A DNA stretch of 64,000 nt from Caldisericota bacterium. Its GTDB lineage: Bacteria; Caldisericota; JANLFM01. Under the pieces are notes generated by a model. That model worked only from the letters and a program-made list of their open reading frames with translations. It searched no databases and was not told the DNA's origin. The DNA lies in assembly GCA_024655965.1 (NCBI GenBank), contig JANLFL010000001.1:402120-466119 (forward strand), in the 5' to 3' direction. The position numbers and the translations under genes were made by a program. Shown piece after piece: positions 27,084 through 50,811 of this stretch. Positions within the stretch are counted from its first letter, which is position 1. Every line of letters starts with the position of its first letter.

Positions 27084-27305
27084 CAAAAAAAGAAAAACCT
27101 CCGTCAAGGACGGAGGTCCGCGGTACCACCTTTATTCCCTTTCGGGCTCTCTTGGCTTTAACGCAGCATGCGAGAAGGCTTACTTTCCTTTCAGCCCCCA
27201 GCTCAGAGAGCGACTTCAGCTCCAACTTGACGGGGAACTCGCACCTTTCATCCCCTCTCTGAGACAAGCGAAGGAGCTTACTCCTCTCTCTTCATCGCTT
27301 TGGGC
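27084..27305 (-). ncRNA. T-box riboswitch, valine specific
   Basis: Reading the minus strand, the leader has the AGGAGTAAGC segment of stem I, an ATGAAAGGTGCGA bulge region and GCTGAAGTCGCTCTCTGAGC, in which the specifier codon is GTC (27212-27214, valine). Then follows the universal T-box sequence AGGTGGTACCGCG (27119-27131). The terminator hairpin ACCTCCGTC-aag-GACGGAGGT lies at 27097-27117, followed by T-rich sequence to 27084. Uncharged tRNA-Val would stabilise the antiterminator and switch on valS-folC. The specifier was placed by alignment from memory to the glycine T-box pattern GAA-codon-pyrimidine stretch-GAGC. Confidence 0.95.
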
Positions 27306-44119: not shown

Positions 44120-44704
44120 TTAAACTGACAGGGGAATTTCCCTGCTCCCGGGTTTTACAAGTTTAATCCCCTGCTTGCAAAGGGGACACTCCTCCTTATT
44201 CCAGGTCTGAATTTCCAGCCTCAAAAGGGATTTCATGGGCACGCCTAAATCGAGGGGTTTCACGCTTCGGTCGATTATTGCCCCAACCCCGCCAACTTTT
44301 GCCCCGAAGGAGTGGCAAACGTCGATTACCTCGAGGACAGATCCGCCGGTAGTGATTACATCCTCGATTACTAAAACCGACTCCCCTTGCTCTAAAGAGA
44401 AACCCCGCCTTAAGACCATCTTCCCCTGCTCCCTTTCGGTGAAGATCGCCCTTTTCCTCAGGTGTCTGGCTACTTCGTAAACGATGATTATTCCCCCCAT
44501 TGCCGGACCGATTACCGTATCTATGGAAATTTCCCCAAAGAGGGAGGCCAGTTCTTCTCCCACGTTTGAGGAGATGGCCGGGTATTGAAGGAGAAGGGCG
44601 CATTGGACATAGCGGTCTGAATGCAGCCCCGAGGAGAGGAGAAAGTGCCCCTGCTGGAGTGCTCCGGTGCGGTAAAGAGTCTCTAAAAGTTCTTCCTTTT
44701 TCAC
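44120..44704 (-). CDS. pyrE: Orotate phosphoribosyltransferase
   Basis: The enzyme converts orotate and PRPP to OMP. The 194-aa protein has the PRPP motif VLVIEDVITTGGSVLEVI (near residues 110-128) and GPAMGGIIIVYEVAR. Its start overlaps the pyrF stop by 4 nt. It is the last gene of the pyrK-pyrD-pyrF-pyrE operon. The C-terminus carries CPLCKQG, a small extra cysteine pair seen in the longer Thermus/Clostridium-like forms. Confidence 0.96.
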   Translation of the reverse strand: MKKEELLETLYRTGALQQGHFLLSSGLHSDRYVQCALLLQYPAISSNVGEELASLFGEISIDTVIGPAMGGIIIVYEVARHLRKRAIFTEREQGKMVLRRGFSLEQGESVLVIEDVITTGGSVLEVIDVCHSFGAKVGGVGAIIDRSVKPLDLGVPMKSLLRLEIQTWNKEECPLCKQGIKLVKPGSREIPLSV

Positions 44705-45594
44705 TTTTTCACCCTTTCTTTTATTGCCTGATTGAGTTTGTCTCGGGCTTCAATATATGCCAGTCTCGTCGCTTCCCAGAATTTGATGTTCATCCCCGAA
44801 TATGGGGGTCTTTGAAAAGCATAAATCAGCTGCCTGGAGGAATTGATCACGGCCCCATTCCCTTTTTGATCGAAAGCCAGCGCAACCTCTTTCTCCGTGG
44901 CTCCCTGGGCACCGTAGCCCGGGACGAGGAAAAAAATTGAGGGAAATTGGCTTCGGAGGAGGGTAAGCTCTTCCGGGGAATTTCCGGCTACAACTGCTCC
45001 CAGTGCACTGAATCCGCTTTTTCCAATAAAGGGTTCCCCCCATTTCCTCACCATTTTTGCTACCTCGAGAAACAGAGGGCCTTCCTTTGTCCCCAGTTCC
45101 TGAATATTTTTGGCGGAGGGGTTTGATGTTCGAACCAGGACGAAGACCCCCTTTTTGAATTTTAGGAAGGGCAGGAACGGCTCGACGGAATCGAACCCCA
45201 GGAAAGGATTCAAGGTAACCGCGTCTGCCCCAAGGGGAGCATCCTCAGAAAGATAAGCTTCGGCATAATGCTCCGAGATTGTTCCGATATCCCCTCTCTT
45301 ACAATCAAGTATGGAGATGATTCCACTTTTCCGGGTTTTCCTCAGGGCTTCTTCTAAAGCCTCGATTCCTTCGCTCCCGTGGCGTTCGAAGCAGGCGATT
45401 TGAAACTTGATCACTGGAACCAGATCCTCGACGCTTTCCAAAATCTGGGCGCAGAACTCAATTAGTGCCTTTTTGGGGGGAAGGCTTGAAAGTTCCCGAG
45501 GAAATGAATCAAGCACCGGATCCATTCCCAGGCAAAGGAGGGAATCCTTTTTCTTCAAGTTGAAAAGAAGCCAATCGGCAAAATTCTCATCCAT
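44701..45594 (-). CDS. pyrF: Orotidine 5'-phosphate decarboxylase (PyrF, long type)
   Basis: The enzyme decarboxylates OMP to UMP. The 297-aa protein is the longer, group-2 type, with the LDCKRGDIGTISEHYAEAYLSE active-site block (the K-x-x-D catalytic array), VTLNPFLGFDSVEPFL and FLVPGYGAQGA. The ATG at 45594 (MDENFADW) overlaps the 3' end of pyrD by 8 nt. A longer in-frame reading to 45666 runs further into pyrD and is not supported. Confidence 0.95.
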   Translation of the reverse strand: MDENFADWLLFNLKKKDSLLCLGMDPVLDSFPRELSSLPPKKALIEFCAQILESVEDLVPVIKFQIACFERHGSEGIEALEEALRKTRKSGIISILDCKRGDIGTISEHYAEAYLSEDAPLGADAVTLNPFLGFDSVEPFLPFLKFKKGVFVLVRTSNPSAKNIQELGTKEGPLFLEVAKMVRKWGEPFIGKSGFSALGAVVAGNSPEELTLLRSQFPSIFFLVPGYGAQGATEKEVALAFDQKGNGAVINSSRQLIYAFQRPPYSGMNIKFWEATRLAYIEARDKLNQAIKERVKK

Positions 45595-46495
45595 CTTTAA
45601 AGGTCCCCCTGATCTCCTCCAGGCTCTCGATCCCCAGTTCATCAAGGATGGATTCCAGTTCCTCAAGGACTTTTATCGGTGCATCCGGTCTGCGGAAGGA
45701 GGCACTCCCCACAGCGATGGCGTAGGCCCCGGCGATGATAAATTCCAGAGCATCCTCCCCGGAGATTATCCCCCCCATGCCTATTACCGGAGTTTTTACG
45801 GCTTTGGAAACTTCGTAAACGAGCCTTAAGGCAAGGGGTTTGATCGCTGGGCCCGAGAGTCCTCCAAAGGTTGTGGCCAGGCGGGATCGTCTTGTCCGGG
45901 GATCGATGGCCATTCCCAAAAAGGTGTTAACCAGCGCGAGACAATCGGCTCCCTCCTCCTCAGCCGCCCTTGCCACTTCCTTAATTTCCCCCGTATTGGG
46001 GGTCAGCTTGACGATCATGGTTTTGGAGCAGGCCTTTCTTAATTTCCGGACAAGTTCCCCGGTTAATTTTGGGCTTGTCCCGAAAAGCATTCCCTCCTTG
46101 ACGTTGGGGCAGGAGACGTTGATCTCCAGAGCGTCAACGCGGGATTGGCTCTCCAAAGTCATGGCAAGGTCGAGGAACTCATCGATCGTCTCCCCCGCGA
46201 TGCTCACAACCAGGGGAACGCGGTATTTTTTAAATAGGGGGAGGGAGTTCTTTAAAAATTCATTTAAGCCATTGTTTTGAAGGCCAATGGAGTTCAAAAG
46301 GCCTGAAGGGGTTTCCCAGATCCGCGGGGAGGGGTTTCCTTGTCGGGGATTTAAAGTGACGGTTTTGGTAACGAAAGCCCCGAGGGAGTCGAGATCGATC
46401 AGGGATTCCGCCTCCTCCCCCCAGCCGTAAGTCCCAGAAGCGACCATTACCGGATTCTTGAGCCTTAAAGCTCCTATTTTTGCTTCAAGATTCAG
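45587..46495 (-). CDS. pyrD: Dihydroorotate dehydrogenase (catalytic subunit, class 1B)
   Basis: The FMN-dependent catalytic subunit oxidises dihydroorotate, passing electrons to PyrK. Conserved blocks are LKNPVMVASGTYGWG, NSIGLQNNG, LEINVSCPNVKEG (active-site cysteine), MIVKLTPN and GGIISGEDALEFI. The first ATG (46447) falls after the conserved LKNPV strand. In-frame upstream codons give NLEAKIGALRLKNPV, so the true start is most likely the CTG at 46495, behind GAGGTGA, since a stop codon lies two codons earlier. It overlaps the pyrK end by 11 nt. Confidence 0.93.
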   Translation of the reverse strand: MNLEAKIGALRLKNPVMVASGTYGWGEEAESLIDLDSLGAFVTKTVTLNPRQGNPSPRIWETPSGLLNSIGLQNNGLNEFLKNSLPLFKKYRVPLVVSIAGETIDEFLDLAMTLESQSRVDALEINVSCPNVKEGMLFGTSPKLTGELVRKLRKACSKTMIVKLTPNTGEIKEVARAAEEEGADCLALVNTFLGMAIDPRTRRSRLATTFGGLSGPAIKPLALRLVYEVSKAVKTPVIGMGGIISGEDALEFIIAGAYAIAVGSASFRRPDAPIKVLEELESILDELGIESLEEIRGTFKDG

Positions 46496-47255
46496 GGAGG
46501 ATCACCTCGCTTGCATTCCAAACCAGTCCTTCCCGGCACAGCCGGACTCTTTTTAGCCCCCTTTCTCCTTTAAGGGAGATGGCGCAGCTCAAACAAACTC
46601 CCACTCCACAGCCCATGATTTCTTCCAGAACTAAATAAAGGGGGACCCCCCGGATTTCTGAAACACTTTTCACTTTTTTCAAAAGAGAAATTGGCCCGCT
46701 GGCAATGATTAGATCGGGGGTAAAATCATCGATCAATTGGGGCAAGGGGTCGATGACCGTCCCCTTTATTCCGGAGGATCCATCTTCGGTCACCAGAAAG
46801 GTTTCCTTTTGGGGAAAAACCAGGGGGAACCAGTTTGTGGAAAGACTCCTTGAGCCCAGAAGGAAGAGGTGTCTTTTGCTTTTGAGGGTTTCAAGATAGC
46901 GAGAAAAGAAAACCCCCCCGGTTCCTCCGCCGACGAGGAGATAACTTTTGGCATCAGGGAGAACGAAGGGTTTTCCCAGAGGGCCTTGCAGTTGGAGAAA
47001 CATTCCCTCCTCAACTTCGGAAAGGATCCGGGTGAATTTTCCCCTGGGGTAAAAAACGATTTCCACTAAGGTCCCCATTTCCTTGAAAACCAGAAAGGGG
47101 CGGGGGAGAAAAGGATCAAGCACCCCCGGAAGGGAAAGCCTGATGAATTGCCCCGGCGCGCTTCCCAGAGGTGAGTCGATCTCCATCACCAGGTGGAAGA
47201 TTTCCCCAGCCAGGCTCGCTTTCTTTAAGATTCTTGCTTTAAATACCCCGCTCAT
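46485..47255 (-). CDS. pyrK: Dihydroorotate dehydrogenase electron-transfer subunit
   Basis: PyrK holds FAD and a [2Fe-2S] cluster and passes electrons from PyrD to NAD. The 256-aa protein has the FAD motif FLPRPFLVF, the NAD-binding LLVGGGTGGVFFSRYLE and the C-terminal cluster cysteines in EIMGCGVGVCLSCAISLKGERG and RLCREG. The ATG directly follows the T-run of a terminator hairpin, with the ribosome site GGAGG inside that hairpin. It heads the pyrKDFE operon. Confidence 0.95.
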   Translation of the reverse strand: MSGVFKARILKKASLAGEIFHLVMEIDSPLGSAPGQFIRLSLPGVLDPFLPRPFLVFKEMGTLVEIVFYPRGKFTRILSEVEEGMFLQLQGPLGKPFVLPDAKSYLLVGGGTGGVFFSRYLETLKSKRHLFLLGSRSLSTNWFPLVFPQKETFLVTEDGSSGIKGTVIDPLPQLIDDFTPDLIIASGPISLLKKVKSVSEIRGVPLYLVLEEIMGCGVGVCLSCAISLKGERGLKRVRLCREGLVWNASEVILPES

Positions 47256-47416: not shown

Positions 47417-48685
47417 TTATTGGCCGGGAAGACCGAGGCTCTTTAAGAAGTTCTTCTTCCTGATCAAGCGTTTGAAGGCTTTCACCACCATAGGATCGAA
47501 TTGGGTTCCCGAATTGTTTTCAATTTCCTTTAAAGCCTCCTCGACGGTAAGCGGTGGGCGGTAAGGTCTGTTGGAAATCATGGCATCGAAAGCATCGGCC
47601 AGGGTGATAATCCTTGCTTCAAGGGGGATTTCGGAGAGAGAAAGGGCGGATGGGTAACCCGAGCCATTTGCCTTTTCGTGGTGGTGCTCAATCCAGGGCA
47701 ATATCGGTTTGAGAAACTTGACGTTTCGGAGAATTTCCACTCCATCCACTGGATGGGCCTTGATTATTTTCCATTCCTCTTCGGTCAAAGCCCCGGGCTT
47801 GCGGAGGATGGCGGGATCGATCGAAACCTTTCCCATGTCATGTAGATAAGCGGCGTATTCCAGAAGTTGCAACCTTGGTTGGGAAAGGGGTAGAGTTTTT
47901 CCTATCTCCAGGGAAACGGTTGCCACTCTATCTGAGTGTCCGTGGGTGTACGGGTCCATGGCCTCGATCACTCCAACCAGGGAACGGAGGGACTGCCGGT
48001 AGACCTCCTGGGTGTGAAAGTAAAGTTTTGAGGCAAAGAAAAAGACGCAGAGAGGGATCAATCCAAGGAGGAGCCCCAGAATTCCAAAGGCTGCGTAGGT
48101 GGGTACAAGCAAAAAAAGGCTCACCCCCAGGACCAAATAAATTCCGAAGAAAAAGAGGGAAAGATGAACTCTTAAAGCATCCCTTAAGTTGGAGCGAAGG
48201 ATGAAAGAGCTTAATAGAGAAATGAAATTGAAGGAAAGGGCGTAGCCGAGAAAGACGGAGGCGAGCGCCAGAAGGAGGGCGGGGGAGTAAGTGTTTAAGG
48301 GAATCCCGATTAACTGGGAGGCGAAGTAATATCGGTATAGGAGTAAGGCCCCCAGGAATCCCCCCAGTTCGGAGGCAATTGATTTGAGAAAGCCGTCCTG
48401 GGCAATATGGGAGAAACTTAGAAAGACGAAGCCACCAAGAAGGGAGGAAAAGAGGACGACCAGGGCCTGTGGTGCCGGGAAGAGGAAAAGGGAAGCGATT
48501 GTGACTACACCAGCAGGGGAAATAATTTCGCCGAAATAGGAAACCTCAAGCGATCGGAGGAGGAAGGCTATTACAGCAAGGGGGAGGACGTTTAAGAAAG
48601 ACCCTGGGTCAAGGTACAGGGCATAGCCCCCGGTAAAAAGGAGCGCGGGAAGCAGAAAGAGGATGTAATTAAGCGGTCTTTTCAT
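47417..48685 (-). CDS. Multi-pass membrane protein with HD-GYP output domain
   Basis: The 422-aa protein has about seven or eight membrane helices in residues 5-220, then a cytoplasmic HD-GYP domain (about 230-410). The metal and catalytic residues are intact: HGHSDRVA (248-255), the HD pair of LHDMGK (282-283), HHHEKANGSGYP (334-345, with the GYP signature at 343-345) and LADAFDAM. HD-GYP domains hydrolyse cyclic di-GMP (some act on cGAMP). The membrane part looks like a sensor and matches no domain I can name. Its ATG lies 17 nt inside the upstream gene, which encodes a degenerate copy. Confidence 0.93.
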   Translation of the reverse strand: MKRPLNYILFLLPALLFTGGYALYLDPGSFLNVLPLAVIAFLLRSLEVSYFGEIISPAGVVTIASLFLFPAPQALVVLFSSLLGGFVFLSFSHIAQDGFLKSIASELGGFLGALLLYRYYFASQLIGIPLNTYSPALLLALASVFLGYALSFNFISLLSSFILRSNLRDALRVHLSLFFFGIYLVLGVSLFLLVPTYAAFGILGLLLGLIPLCVFFFASKLYFHTQEVYRQSLRSLVGVIEAMDPYTHGHSDRVATVSLEIGKTLPLSQPRLQLLEYAAYLHDMGKVSIDPAILRKPGALTEEEWKIIKAHPVDGVEILRNVKFLKPILPWIEHHHEKANGSGYPSALSLSEIPLEARIITLADAFDAMISNRPYRPPLTVEEALKEIENNSGTQFDPMVVKAFKRLIRKKNFLKSLGLPGQ

Positions 48686-49910
48686 TTTCTTTCTCCCTTT
48701 CCAGGATGGCGATCAAGGATTCAATTACCCTTGGGTCGAAGTGTTTTCCGCCTTTTTCCCTTAGACTTTTCAGGATTCCCTCGCGGGACTCCCCCTGGAA
48801 TTCGAGTTCCTCCAGAAATTCGCAGGCGGAAATGATTCGGGCCCCGAGGGGAATCTGGTCTCCCTTGAGTCCCCAGGGTCCAGTACCGTCCCATCTTTCG
48901 TGATGAAGGCGGATGAAAGGGGCCGCCTTTTTTAAGGTCTCGGTTCGCTCAAGAATTTGAGAGCCTGCCAGAAGGGCATTCACCACGATGGGGCTTGAAG
49001 ACCAGATAGGACGGGAAAGGGTGAGTTCCAGAAGGCTGTCCTCAATCCCCACCAGTCCGATATGGCGAAGATAGCTGGCATACCCTAATGTTTCGGCTTC
49101 CTCTGGAGGAAGGCCCAAAGCCTGACTTACCTGAAGGGCGTATTCGTAAACCTTTTGGTTTCTTCCCTGTTGGCCGAATTTTTTATCCACCGTGGCCATC
49201 AATGCGCGGATGGTTTCGGTGTAAGTCTCCTGGATACCCACGTAAGCCTGGAAGATGTACCTGGAAGCGAGGAGGGGTAAAAAGAGGATGGCAAGCCCCA
49301 GGTAGCCCAATTGAGTGAAGATGTAAGCCAGAAAGAGGGCGAAGGGGACAGCGATGAGCATGTTGGGAAACTCCCATTTGAGGATGTTCCAGAAAACCTT
49401 TTTAAGTGATCCCTGGTCGAAAGAGATGGCCCCCGCGGTAAGCCCCACGTTTACCACTGAGTAAACCATGCCGCTTAAGATTGCCGGAAGGATGGTTTTT
49501 AGGGGAACAGCGAAAGAAATTGAAAGAGCCGACCCTCCTGTGCGGTAGTAAATCAAAGCGGCTGCCCCATAGGAAATGGCAAGCTGGGCGCCATTAAAGA
49601 GGTAAACGTAGGGTTTTTTTAGGGGAAGGCTCTCCGGAAGGGCCCCGGTTATTGCCGGTATCCACACCGAAAAAGGGCCGAATAGAAAAAGGGCAGCGAA
49701 GTTCACATGAGAGGCCACGGAAAGATAGACGTTCAATTTTGGGAGTTTTACAAGGAGGATATAAGCGAGGTAACTGATAATGGCGAAAATCAAATAATCC
49801 CAGGCAAAAACCAAACGAAAATATGGGAAGGTGAGGAAAAGGACAACTAAACCCCCTGTGATGACCAATGCCAAGTAGACCTTAAGGCCTTTTGGAAATT
49901 CCTTCTTCAT
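48669..49910 (-). CDS. Multi-pass membrane protein with degenerate HD domain
   Basis: The 413-aa protein has the same layout as its downstream neighbour: about eight hydrophobic segments in residues 10-225, then an HD-like domain. At exactly matching positions the HD of LHDMGK is replaced by RH in LRHIGL (282-283), GYP (343-345) is replaced by GPW, and the DAFD block is replaced by CEFLEE. It is therefore probably catalytically dead but retains the fold, a pseudo-enzyme sensor. No clear ribosome site precedes its ATG (49910). It follows the 31-codon peptide gene by 36 bases. Confidence 0.88.
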   Translation of the reverse strand: MKKEFPKGLKVYLALVITGGLVVLFLTFPYFRLVFAWDYLIFAIISYLAYILLVKLPKLNVYLSVASHVNFAALFLFGPFSVWIPAITGALPESLPLKKPYVYLFNGAQLAISYGAAALIYYRTGGSALSISFAVPLKTILPAILSGMVYSVVNVGLTAGAISFDQGSLKKVFWNILKWEFPNMLIAVPFALFLAYIFTQLGYLGLAILFLPLLASRYIFQAYVGIQETYTETIRALMATVDKKFGQQGRNQKVYEYALQVSQALGLPPEEAETLGYASYLRHIGLVGIEDSLLELTLSRPIWSSSPIVVNALLAGSQILERTETLKKAAPFIRLHHERWDGTGPWGLKGDQIPLGARIISACEFLEELEFQGESREGILKSLREKGGKHFDPRVIESLIAILEREKENEKTA

Positions 49911-49946
49911 TCTTTTATTAGACGGCGCACTCCATTCAGGCGTTCG

Positions 49947-50042
49947 CTACCTTCCGCCCCACTTGACGTCTGCTCCGGATGCCAGAATCAAGGAAGCGAT
50001 AGTGGCCACAAACCACAGAGCTCTCGTTAACCAGCGTTTCAT
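49947..50042 (-). CDS. 31-aa signal-peptide-like small protein (candidate pheromone precursor)
   Basis: A 31-codon ORF starts ATG at 50042 and ends TAG at 49947. Its N-terminus is basic (MKRWLTR), the centre is hydrophobic (ALWFVATIASLIL), and it ends ASGADVKWGGR. The S-G-A before DVKWGGR is a fair signal-peptidase site, so a secreted heptapeptide DVKWGGR is predicted. AAAGGGGG stands 6-7 nt before the ATG. A TATAAT (50130-50135) lies upstream. It precedes two membrane HD-domain genes on the same strand with a 36-nt gap. No cysteine is present, so it is not an AgrD-type lactone precursor. Function is unproven; expression must be tested. Confidence 0.6.
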   Translation of the reverse strand: MKRWLTRALWFVATIASLILASGADVKWGGR

Positions 50043-50122
50043 GGGGATCCCCCTTTCGCACTCAAATGTTTCCACAGAGCGCTTCGCTAAAGGGAGTTTC
50101 CCGCTTCAGAATGCGCCGTCCA
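50043..50122 (-). promoter_or_regulatory. Structured leader of the small-peptide gene
   Basis: Read on the minus strand, CTCCCTTT (50089-50096) can pair with AAAGGGGG (50049-50056), which is the ribosome site of the 31-codon ORF. Inside this stem GCGCTC (50077-50082) pairs with GAGTGC (50058-50063), capped by TGT-GGAA-ACA. Alternatively GGGA-AAC-TCCC (50092-50102) forms and would free the ribosome site. The two folds exclude each other, so the leader could be a translational switch. It does not match c-di-GMP-I or -II riboswitch sequences as I know them. Confidence 0.5.
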
Positions 50123-50129
50123 GAAAAAG

Positions 50130-50135
50130 ATTATA
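50130..50135 (-). promoter_or_regulatory. -10 element upstream of the peptide gene
   Basis: TATAAT on the minus strand. A weak TTTACC lies 18 bp further upstream as a -35 element; TTGACT is too close (10 bp). The expected start near 50123 places GACGGCGCA (50112-50120) almost at the 5' end of the RNA. Confidence 0.45.
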
Positions 50136-50175
50136 GAGGAAAAAAAGTCAAGGGGTAAATTACAGAAAAAATATT

Positions 50176-50811
50176 TTAAACTTCCCCCTCCGCGATTTTG
50201 GGAAGAAGTCGGTTAATTGCACTGAGAACGCTTTTTACCGCCGCTTCTTCCTCGCTTCCCCTAACGGGGGCCGTCCCCGCGAGGACCAGGCCCCCCTTTC
50301 TTCCGTTCAGCAGGACCGAAGATACGACAAAAGGCATTTCAGCGGTCTTTAGGAGGTATATTCCTTGAAGGTGGAGTTTTTCATCCCCCAGGAAATGATT
50401 GACCGCTGAAACTGCAGCCTGCCCAATGGACTGAAGTCTCTGGGAGGGGTCCCGAACGAACGCTTGCCCCGGATGTTCCAAACCCGCTGGGTCTTTCAAG
50501 AGAACTTCGAAAAAATTTGGGTCCCCGGGAACAGTGCTGATTCCCACGAATTTGAGCCTGCCCTCGAGTGGGTGCTCCGCTTCCTTTTCGCTCTGCTGGA
50601 CAACTCCGATTTTTTTGTGGTCGACTTTTTTGCCGAATTTTACAAGCAGGGTTGACTCCACGTCTCGCACTACCTGTTTTGGGTTCCTCTGGTCGGTTGC
50701 CAGGATGTGGATTTCAACAATCTCCCCCTTCTGGTCGGTGACAATTTTGGCTCCCAGAACAGACTTAATGCGCAAAATCGCGCTTTCCATTTCCTGAATC
50801 AAGCTTTTCAA
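50176..50811 (-). CDS. Uncharacterised two-domain protein (paralogue of the 27413 gene)
   Basis: I do not recognise a named family. The 211-aa protein has an N-terminal part with EIHILATDQRNPKQVVRDVESTL and KVDHKKIGVVQ, and a C-terminal part with PGQAFVRDPSQRLQSIGQAAVSAVNHFLG and LVLAGTAPVRGSEEEAAVKSVLSAINRL. The same motif series is found in the protein at 27413-28054. It is soluble, without a visible catalytic motif. It lies directly upstream of the peptide/HD-domain cluster on the same strand (133-bp gap with a promoter-like -10), and diverges from the archease gene. Confidence 0.82.
   Translation of the reverse strand: MKSLIQEMESAILRIKSVLGAKIVTDQKGEIVEIHILATDQRNPKQVVRDVESTLLVKFGKKVDHKKIGVVQQSEKEAEHPLEGRLKFVGISTVPGDPNFFEVLLKDPAGLEHPGQAFVRDPSQRLQSIGQAAVSAVNHFLGDEKLHLQGIYLLKTAEMPFVVSSVLLNGRKGGLVLAGTAPVRGSEEEAAVKSVLSAINRLLPKIAEGEV

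Follow-up and report, generated by a model that had tools for sequence, protein, structure and literature searches.

Short peptide genes beside membrane HD-GYP genes suggest a candidate peptide-signalling system in mainly thermophilic bacteria

Introduction

What is the role of a gene of only 31 codons that lies directly ahead of two overlapping genes for membrane proteins? The question is raised by a 64,000-nucleotide stretch of a Caldisericota genome (contig JANLFL010000001.1; hereafter the window), for which it had been predicted from the DNA letters that the short open reading frame (ORF) encodes a secreted peptide sensed by membrane proteins with an HD-GYP output. The reading that best fits our data, and that we hold to be probable, is a secreted short peptide acting as a signal to a membrane-bound c-di-GMP phosphodiesterase. 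It is supported by a constant layout and genetic linkage across at least five phyla, and by a peptide tail that varies with the sensor; peptide cleavage, secretion, binding and an effect on c-di-GMP would complete the scheme.

Results

A short coding ORF precedes two receptor genes

The module is encoded on the reverse strand of the window:

49947..50042, reverse strand: peptide gene of 31 codons, MKRWLTRALWFVATIASLILASGADVKWGGR, assigned from its sequence and its conservation in the family
49971..50042, reverse strand: codons 1–24, basic N-terminus and hydrophobic stretch ending in Ala, a predicted export signal (from the family alignment)
49950..49970, reverse strand: codons 25–31, predicted released tail DVKWGGR, with Trp at position 4
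48669..49910, reverse strand: R1, membrane sensor (MASE9, predicted fold like that of ECF S-components) with an HD-GYP domain that lacks the catalytic residues
47417..48685, reverse strand: R2, multi-pass membrane domain with an intact HD-GYP domain

The sequence bears out the predicted arrangement, in which the ORF has a ribosome-binding site (Shine-Dalgarno site AAAGGGGG), stops 36 bp ahead of R1 and is followed by two membrane genes that overlap by 17 bp. Pfam recognised HD_5 in both receptors and MASE9 (PF20972) in R1, at 27.5 bits against a gathering cut-off of 24.3; the R2 membrane domain was not recognised as MASE9 by Pfam. The proposal that one HD-GYP domain is intact and the other catalytically lost also held: R2 retains the HD motif and GYP, whereas R1 carries six substitutions (H250R, H282R, D283H, K286L, H312A and D364E) and has no GYP. 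The substitutions are the same in the ortholog of a congener, and RH stands in place of HD in R1 of G003, a genome from another genus of the same family, the degenerate HD motif being common to all three family genomes. By their metal-binding His and Asp residues and GYP motif, R2 and the wider receptor family are classed as predicted HD-GYP c-di-GMP phosphodiesterases; R1 lacks these features. Of the 83 receptors in our alignment, 81 keep the full catalytic set, and sequence matches of the HD-GYP domain in the PDB include 4mcw and 5z7c.

The pairing of a pseudo-enzyme with an enzyme is real at this locus, and is a local variant, as we observed this tandem only in the window's family; elsewhere, one intact HD-GYP gene is accompanied by a gene for a DUF5317 protein. 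In the window's family no DUF5317 gene adjoins the module; in the window's genome, DUF5317 is encoded at another site that has no HD-GYP gene.

From its substitution pattern, we judge the short ORF to be coding, since synonymous changes dominate in the congener (six, next to one K-to-R change; pN/pS 0.06) and since the ORF is retained in the other genus as MSRNWLSRVIWFIASIATLILASGADLKWGGH (pN/pS 0.29), where R1 is 54% identical. The downstream gene is identical in kind in both relatives. Conservation among relatives, on which the original prediction had staked itself, was thus found in the congener and beyond the genus. Neither NCBIfam nor Pfam holds a family covering these peptides. Upstream of the module (50176-50811, reverse strand) lies a gene for a 211-aa protein without a Pfam match, and G001 and G003 have an ORF of similar size in the corresponding position.

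The peptide genes recur in at least five phyla

Other Caldisericota have distant HD-GYP homologs that are likewise preceded by short ORFs, MKWGARVLAFILSVMVIALTVLADLKWH being one example. A profile HMM built from five such peptides matched about 20 Caldisericota genomes at E <0.01; almost all of the matches immediately precede a membrane HD-GYP gene. The gene order in this phylum is peptide array, HD-GYP, DUF5317, and every peptide-bearing Caldisericota genome also has DUF5317. While the HMM did not reach into other phyla by sequence, the DUF5317 neighbourhood did. We located DUF5317 genes, first across 386 genomes and afterwards in additional phyla, and read the upstream DNA for peptide ORFs. 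Ahead of membrane HD-GYP genes that are paired with DUF5317, this gave 133 ORFs (a handful of them probable false positives of the loose rule) with 116 unique sequences at 109 loci. These loci fall in Caldisericota, Deinococcota (presumably Thermus and Meiothermus) and at least three other phyla, so the expected recurrence in relatives of a short basic-hydrophobic-polar ORF before membrane HD-GYP genes extends over at least five phyla.

The linkage is close to complete. There are 109 HD-GYP/DUF5317 pairs, of which 11 end at a contig edge without upstream sequence, leaving 98 testable pairs; an upstream peptide was detected in 92 of these by an automatic rule and in 97 on inspection. Among the five pairs recognised by inspection, the peptide gene starts with a different codon in two, is displaced in one, and has Trp changed to Tyr in one and to Leu in another; L279 is the sole testable pair in which no upstream peptide was found. 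Under a strict rule, a peptide precedes 73 of 87 HD-GYP starts, compared with none of the 731 ORFs used as controls and 3 of the 4350 shuffled sequences. The same layout at 109 loci, with 0 of 731 in controls, is more than chance. Applied to DUF5317 genes without HD-GYP (L144, L145, L147, L148 and L150), the rule used found no peptide.

Other arrangements were also seen. Two tandem DUF5317 genes follow the HD-GYP gene at L084, L078, L094 and L095 in Caldisericota, and DUF5317 genes located away from HD-GYP genes at L144 (G000:C11:22304-22744), L145 and L152 are preceded by ORFs of ~165 aa and 230–250 aa, which is a second context for DUF5317. A tblastn search with a Thermus receptor against plasmids gave only partial matches, mostly to the HD-GYP part.

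The peptide genes often occur in 2–6 tandem copies; in G008, six identical copies repeat every 104 bp, and each has its own Shine-Dalgarno site. Arrays lie at contig ends at L076, L077, L081, L082, L083, L087 and L089, which implies that assemblies seem to break there and that copy numbers in metagenome-assembled genomes are underestimates. Their length, their hydrophobicity and these identical copies are features that the peptides share with Ldr/Ibs-like type I toxins, short membrane-disrupting peptides of repeat arrays. We consider a toxin extremely improbable: the genes have strong Shine-Dalgarno sites and, across five or more phyla, accompany a single type of receptor gene in the same orientation, and a toxin would predict neither the invariant Trp at tail position 4 nor the tracking of tail and sensor described below.

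A conserved pre-part carries a variable tail

Throughout the family the layout is constant: a basic N-terminus, a hydrophobic stretch, an Ala and a tail of mostly 4–7 residues with Trp at tail position 4. With the candidate cut site read by rule from the Ala at -1 and the -3 residue, Ala occupies -1 in 104 of the 116 unique peptides, and a small or aliphatic -3 residue accompanies it in ~90% of peptides, being Ile or Leu in some clades. The layout matches a predicted export signal with a site like that of signal peptidase I (SPase I). A short Trp-containing tail after Ala, as predicted for the window, therefore recurs across the family, while the seven residues of DVKWGGR are peculiar to the window's family, the usual tail having five; a single residue follows Trp in 82 of the 116 unique peptides, and three in that of the window. 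Tails are almost free of Cys, with examples elsewhere including DLKWH, DTQWQ and SARWE. Natural tails without Trp occur at L231 (SASYNP) and L319 (ASFKLG, in two copies), and in the phylum of G153 the loci L320, L321 and L322 have 2–3 tandem copies with the longer tails TLKWRPG, NVKWHGGG and SIKWRPGGR.

Variation is concentrated in the tail. In 27 Thermus species we found 22 different tails on a nearly invariant pre-part, with pN/pS of 0.61 in the tail versus 0.27 in the pre-part; the corresponding values in Meiothermus are 0.56 and 0.37. A frozen carrier with a variable tail is a pattern of the pheromone type.

Tail variation tracks the sensor

In partial Mantel tests of tail against sensor, given the HD domain, the correlation in four groups was r 0.25, 0.17, 0.24 and 0.51 (p 0.005, 0.048, 0.0015 and 0.0005, respectively), with a first Thermus run giving r 0.33 and p 0.0002; such tests remove shared ancestry only in part. 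The reverse test, of tail against HD domain given the sensor, was non-significant in three of the four groups. In Thermus, Meiothermus and Caldisericota, tail differences go with the sensor and show no significant association with DUF5317; in the phylum of G194 they follow DUF5317 as well and, to a weak degree, the HD domain. Among the genomic data, the tracking of the sensor makes the strongest case that tail and sensor form a pair, but it stops short of proving binding.

The same observations bear on a different possibility, that the peptide stays uncut as a membrane-anchored regulatory subunit whose tail dips into the outward pocket of the sensor, acting as a tethered or same-cell ligand. 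A single hydrophobic stretch with the 4–7-residue tail directly after it would suit such a subunit, strict linkage and tail-sensor tracking fit it equally well, and in Thermus the pre-part follows the sensor too (r 0.33, p 0.001). Three points speak against it, namely that the Ala with a small -3 residue resembles a peptidase site in ~90% of peptides, that fast, species-specific change of the tail on a frozen pre-part is the pattern of an exchanged signal, and that gene arrays suggest a need for dose. We regard the uncut subunit as unlikely.

The predicted sensor fold resembles vitamin-binding S-components

An AlphaFold2 model of R1 (mean pLDDT 91.2) was compared with known structures using Foldseek. 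The HD-GYP part matched known HD-GYP structures, and a segment of ~166 columns, taken as the membrane domain because of its length, matched ECF S-components with weak E-values (0.04–0.95) and TM scores on target of 0.65 for TmRibU (probability 1.00), 0.70 for FolT and 0.59 for ThiT. The sensor part of the receptor has no sequence match in the PDB. By sequence, 62 of the 83 receptors match MASE9 at E 0.001, a domain that to our knowledge has no known ligand. ECF S-components bind vitamins from the outside; together with the similar size of a pentapeptide, this suggests how the tail may be sensed. The membrane protein DUF5317 has conserved polar residues (model pLDDT 95.2); comparison with the PDB, whether of sequence or of fold, gave no relative.

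These structures could also be read differently, with the peptide as the precursor of some other exported product, for example one processed by DUF5317, and the HD-GYP sensor answering another ligand such as a vitamin. The S-component-like fold suggests vitamin-like ligands, the polar residues of DUF5317 and its lack of a known fold relative are in keeping with such a role, and the tail tracks DUF5317 in the phylum of G194. We nevertheless find another product very unlikely, given that the window's family has the peptide-receptor pair without a neighbouring DUF5317, and that tails in Thermus, Meiothermus and Caldisericota follow the sensor.

For the secreted signal that we favour, the steps might be as follows. 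Once inserted into the membrane through its basic-hydrophobic part, the pre-peptide would be cleaved behind the conserved Ala, by SPase I or a comparable protease, to set free a short tail whose fourth residue is Trp (DVKWGGR in the window). The S-component-like membrane domain of the downstream receptor would bind this tail on the outer side, altering the c-di-GMP phosphodiesterase activity of the cytoplasmic HD-GYP domain. Most genomes have one intact receptor together with DUF5317, which perhaps exports or processes the peptide or acts as a co-receptor. For the window's family, we propose that the pseudo-enzyme R1 may sense the tail and regulate the intact R2.

A predicted RNA element surrounds the peptide gene of the window

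In the window's family, the peptide ORF lies within a predicted RNA element (49921-50135, reverse strand), in which a long-range stem of 12–13 bp encloses the whole ORF:

50154..50159, reverse strand: putative -35 TTTACC, 18 bp from the -10, found by eye and conserved in the congener
50130..50135, reverse strand: putative -10 TATAAT, conserved in the three genomes of the family
50109..50121, reverse strand: 5' arm of the long-range stem (GGACGGCGCATTC), pairing with 49921-49932 in all three genomes
50049..50096, reverse strand: predicted hairpin burying the Shine-Dalgarno site of the peptide gene, the same in the window and the congener
49921..49932, reverse strand: 3' arm of the long-range stem, ~10 nt before the R1 start codon

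The transcript start predicted from TATAAT falls at the base of the long stem. The element is conserved in the three family genomes, with fold z-scores of -3.5, -2.9 and -3.4, although in G003 the minimum-energy fold of the hairpin differs and the centroid is similar. Synonymous sites change more slowly in the ORF than in R1 (pS 0.26 vs 0.72), which fits the RNA sequence also mattering. Rfam 15 covariance models gave no match over 49700-50300 even at E 5. The 230-bp element is not a mobile repeat, as it is single-copy in the genome and present in only three genomes.

Such an arrangement might be expected of a cis-acting leader peptide, whose translation would open the RNA structure and set expression of the receptor genes; the buried Shine-Dalgarno site, the stem ending just before R1, the z-scores and the slow synonymous sites all point that way. 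However, the element was found in only the three genomes of the window's family and not in other groups, loci elsewhere have an ordinary Shine-Dalgarno site, a variable distance to the receptor gene and, often, identical tandem copies, and a leader gives no reason for tail variation to track the sensor protein. A leader as the function of the family is thus highly improbable. Because we did not find the element in other groups, we take it as an extra control over peptide synthesis, not the main function; the leader RNA may be a layer added to peptide signalling in the window's family.

Discussion

How does the proposed signal relate to known systems? In Firmicutes, Phr/RRNPPA signals, like the one proposed here, arise from short pro-peptides with a Sec signal, have the mature signal at the C-terminus and are encoded beside the receptor, and there is precedent among them for cutting of a C-terminal peptide by signal peptidase and for coevolution of signal and receptor (PMC9765709; ComS/ComR, PMC8605241). 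RRNPPA receptors, unlike the present ones, are cytoplasmic and depend on re-import by Opp; the neighbour of our pro-peptide is a gene for a membrane protein with HD-GYP output, in other phyla, and not one for a cytoplasmic TPR/HTH receptor. AgrD/AgrC and ComD-type systems similarly encode a short peptide beside a multi-pass membrane receptor. In contrast to AgrD/AgrC, the output here is HD-GYP, with no histidine kinase, AgrB or thiolactone Cys; the identified neighbours of the peptide loci are HD-GYP and DUF5317, with neither AgrB nor a kinase among them. A cell-density signal is read directly by a c-di-GMP enzyme in RpfR with BDSF and in rpHK1S-Z16 with AI-2, and the predicted fold of the membrane domain, here fused to HD-GYP, resembles that of RibU, FolT and ThiT.

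A census of c-di-GMP stimuli from 2022 names the quorum signals AI-2 and BDSF; we found no peptide signal there (PMC8846402). For thermophiles, a 2018 survey reported no complete peptide quorum system of known type in any of them, leaving open unknown components, and cites a report of a Thermotoga maritima quorum peptide (PMC6022435). Searches of the open-access literature gave no paper dealing with DUF5317 and a single one, on an unrelated subject, that mentions MASE9; they revealed no peptide-pheromone system with HD-GYP or in Thermus. The T. maritima signal is, as far as we know, a single peptide without a known receptor.

We know of no part that the present family has in common with any known peptide-signal system; in principle it would count as peptide signalling, with a predicted function. 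On balance, we lean towards a new class of cell-cell signalling in at least five mainly thermophilic phyla, in which secreted, species-specific Trp peptides of 4–7 residues would act on an S-component-like sensor that directly controls a c-di-GMP phosphodiesterase. If true, this would fill two gaps, peptide signals in thermophiles and peptide stimuli for c-di-GMP, and would give MASE9 a ligand class and DUF5317 a context. The peptide genes may have been overlooked because, at 24–36 codons, they are close to or shorter than the minimum gene length that annotation usually accepts. Since the family occurs in cultivable Thermus and Meiothermus, the question is testable at once.

Elsewhere in the window, pyrimidine genes lie downstream of the module (44120-47255, reverse strand), recognised by Pfam as dihydroorotate dehydrogenase and its FeS subunit, and a T-box leader (RF00230, 111 bits) is found at 27103-27304 on the reverse strand.
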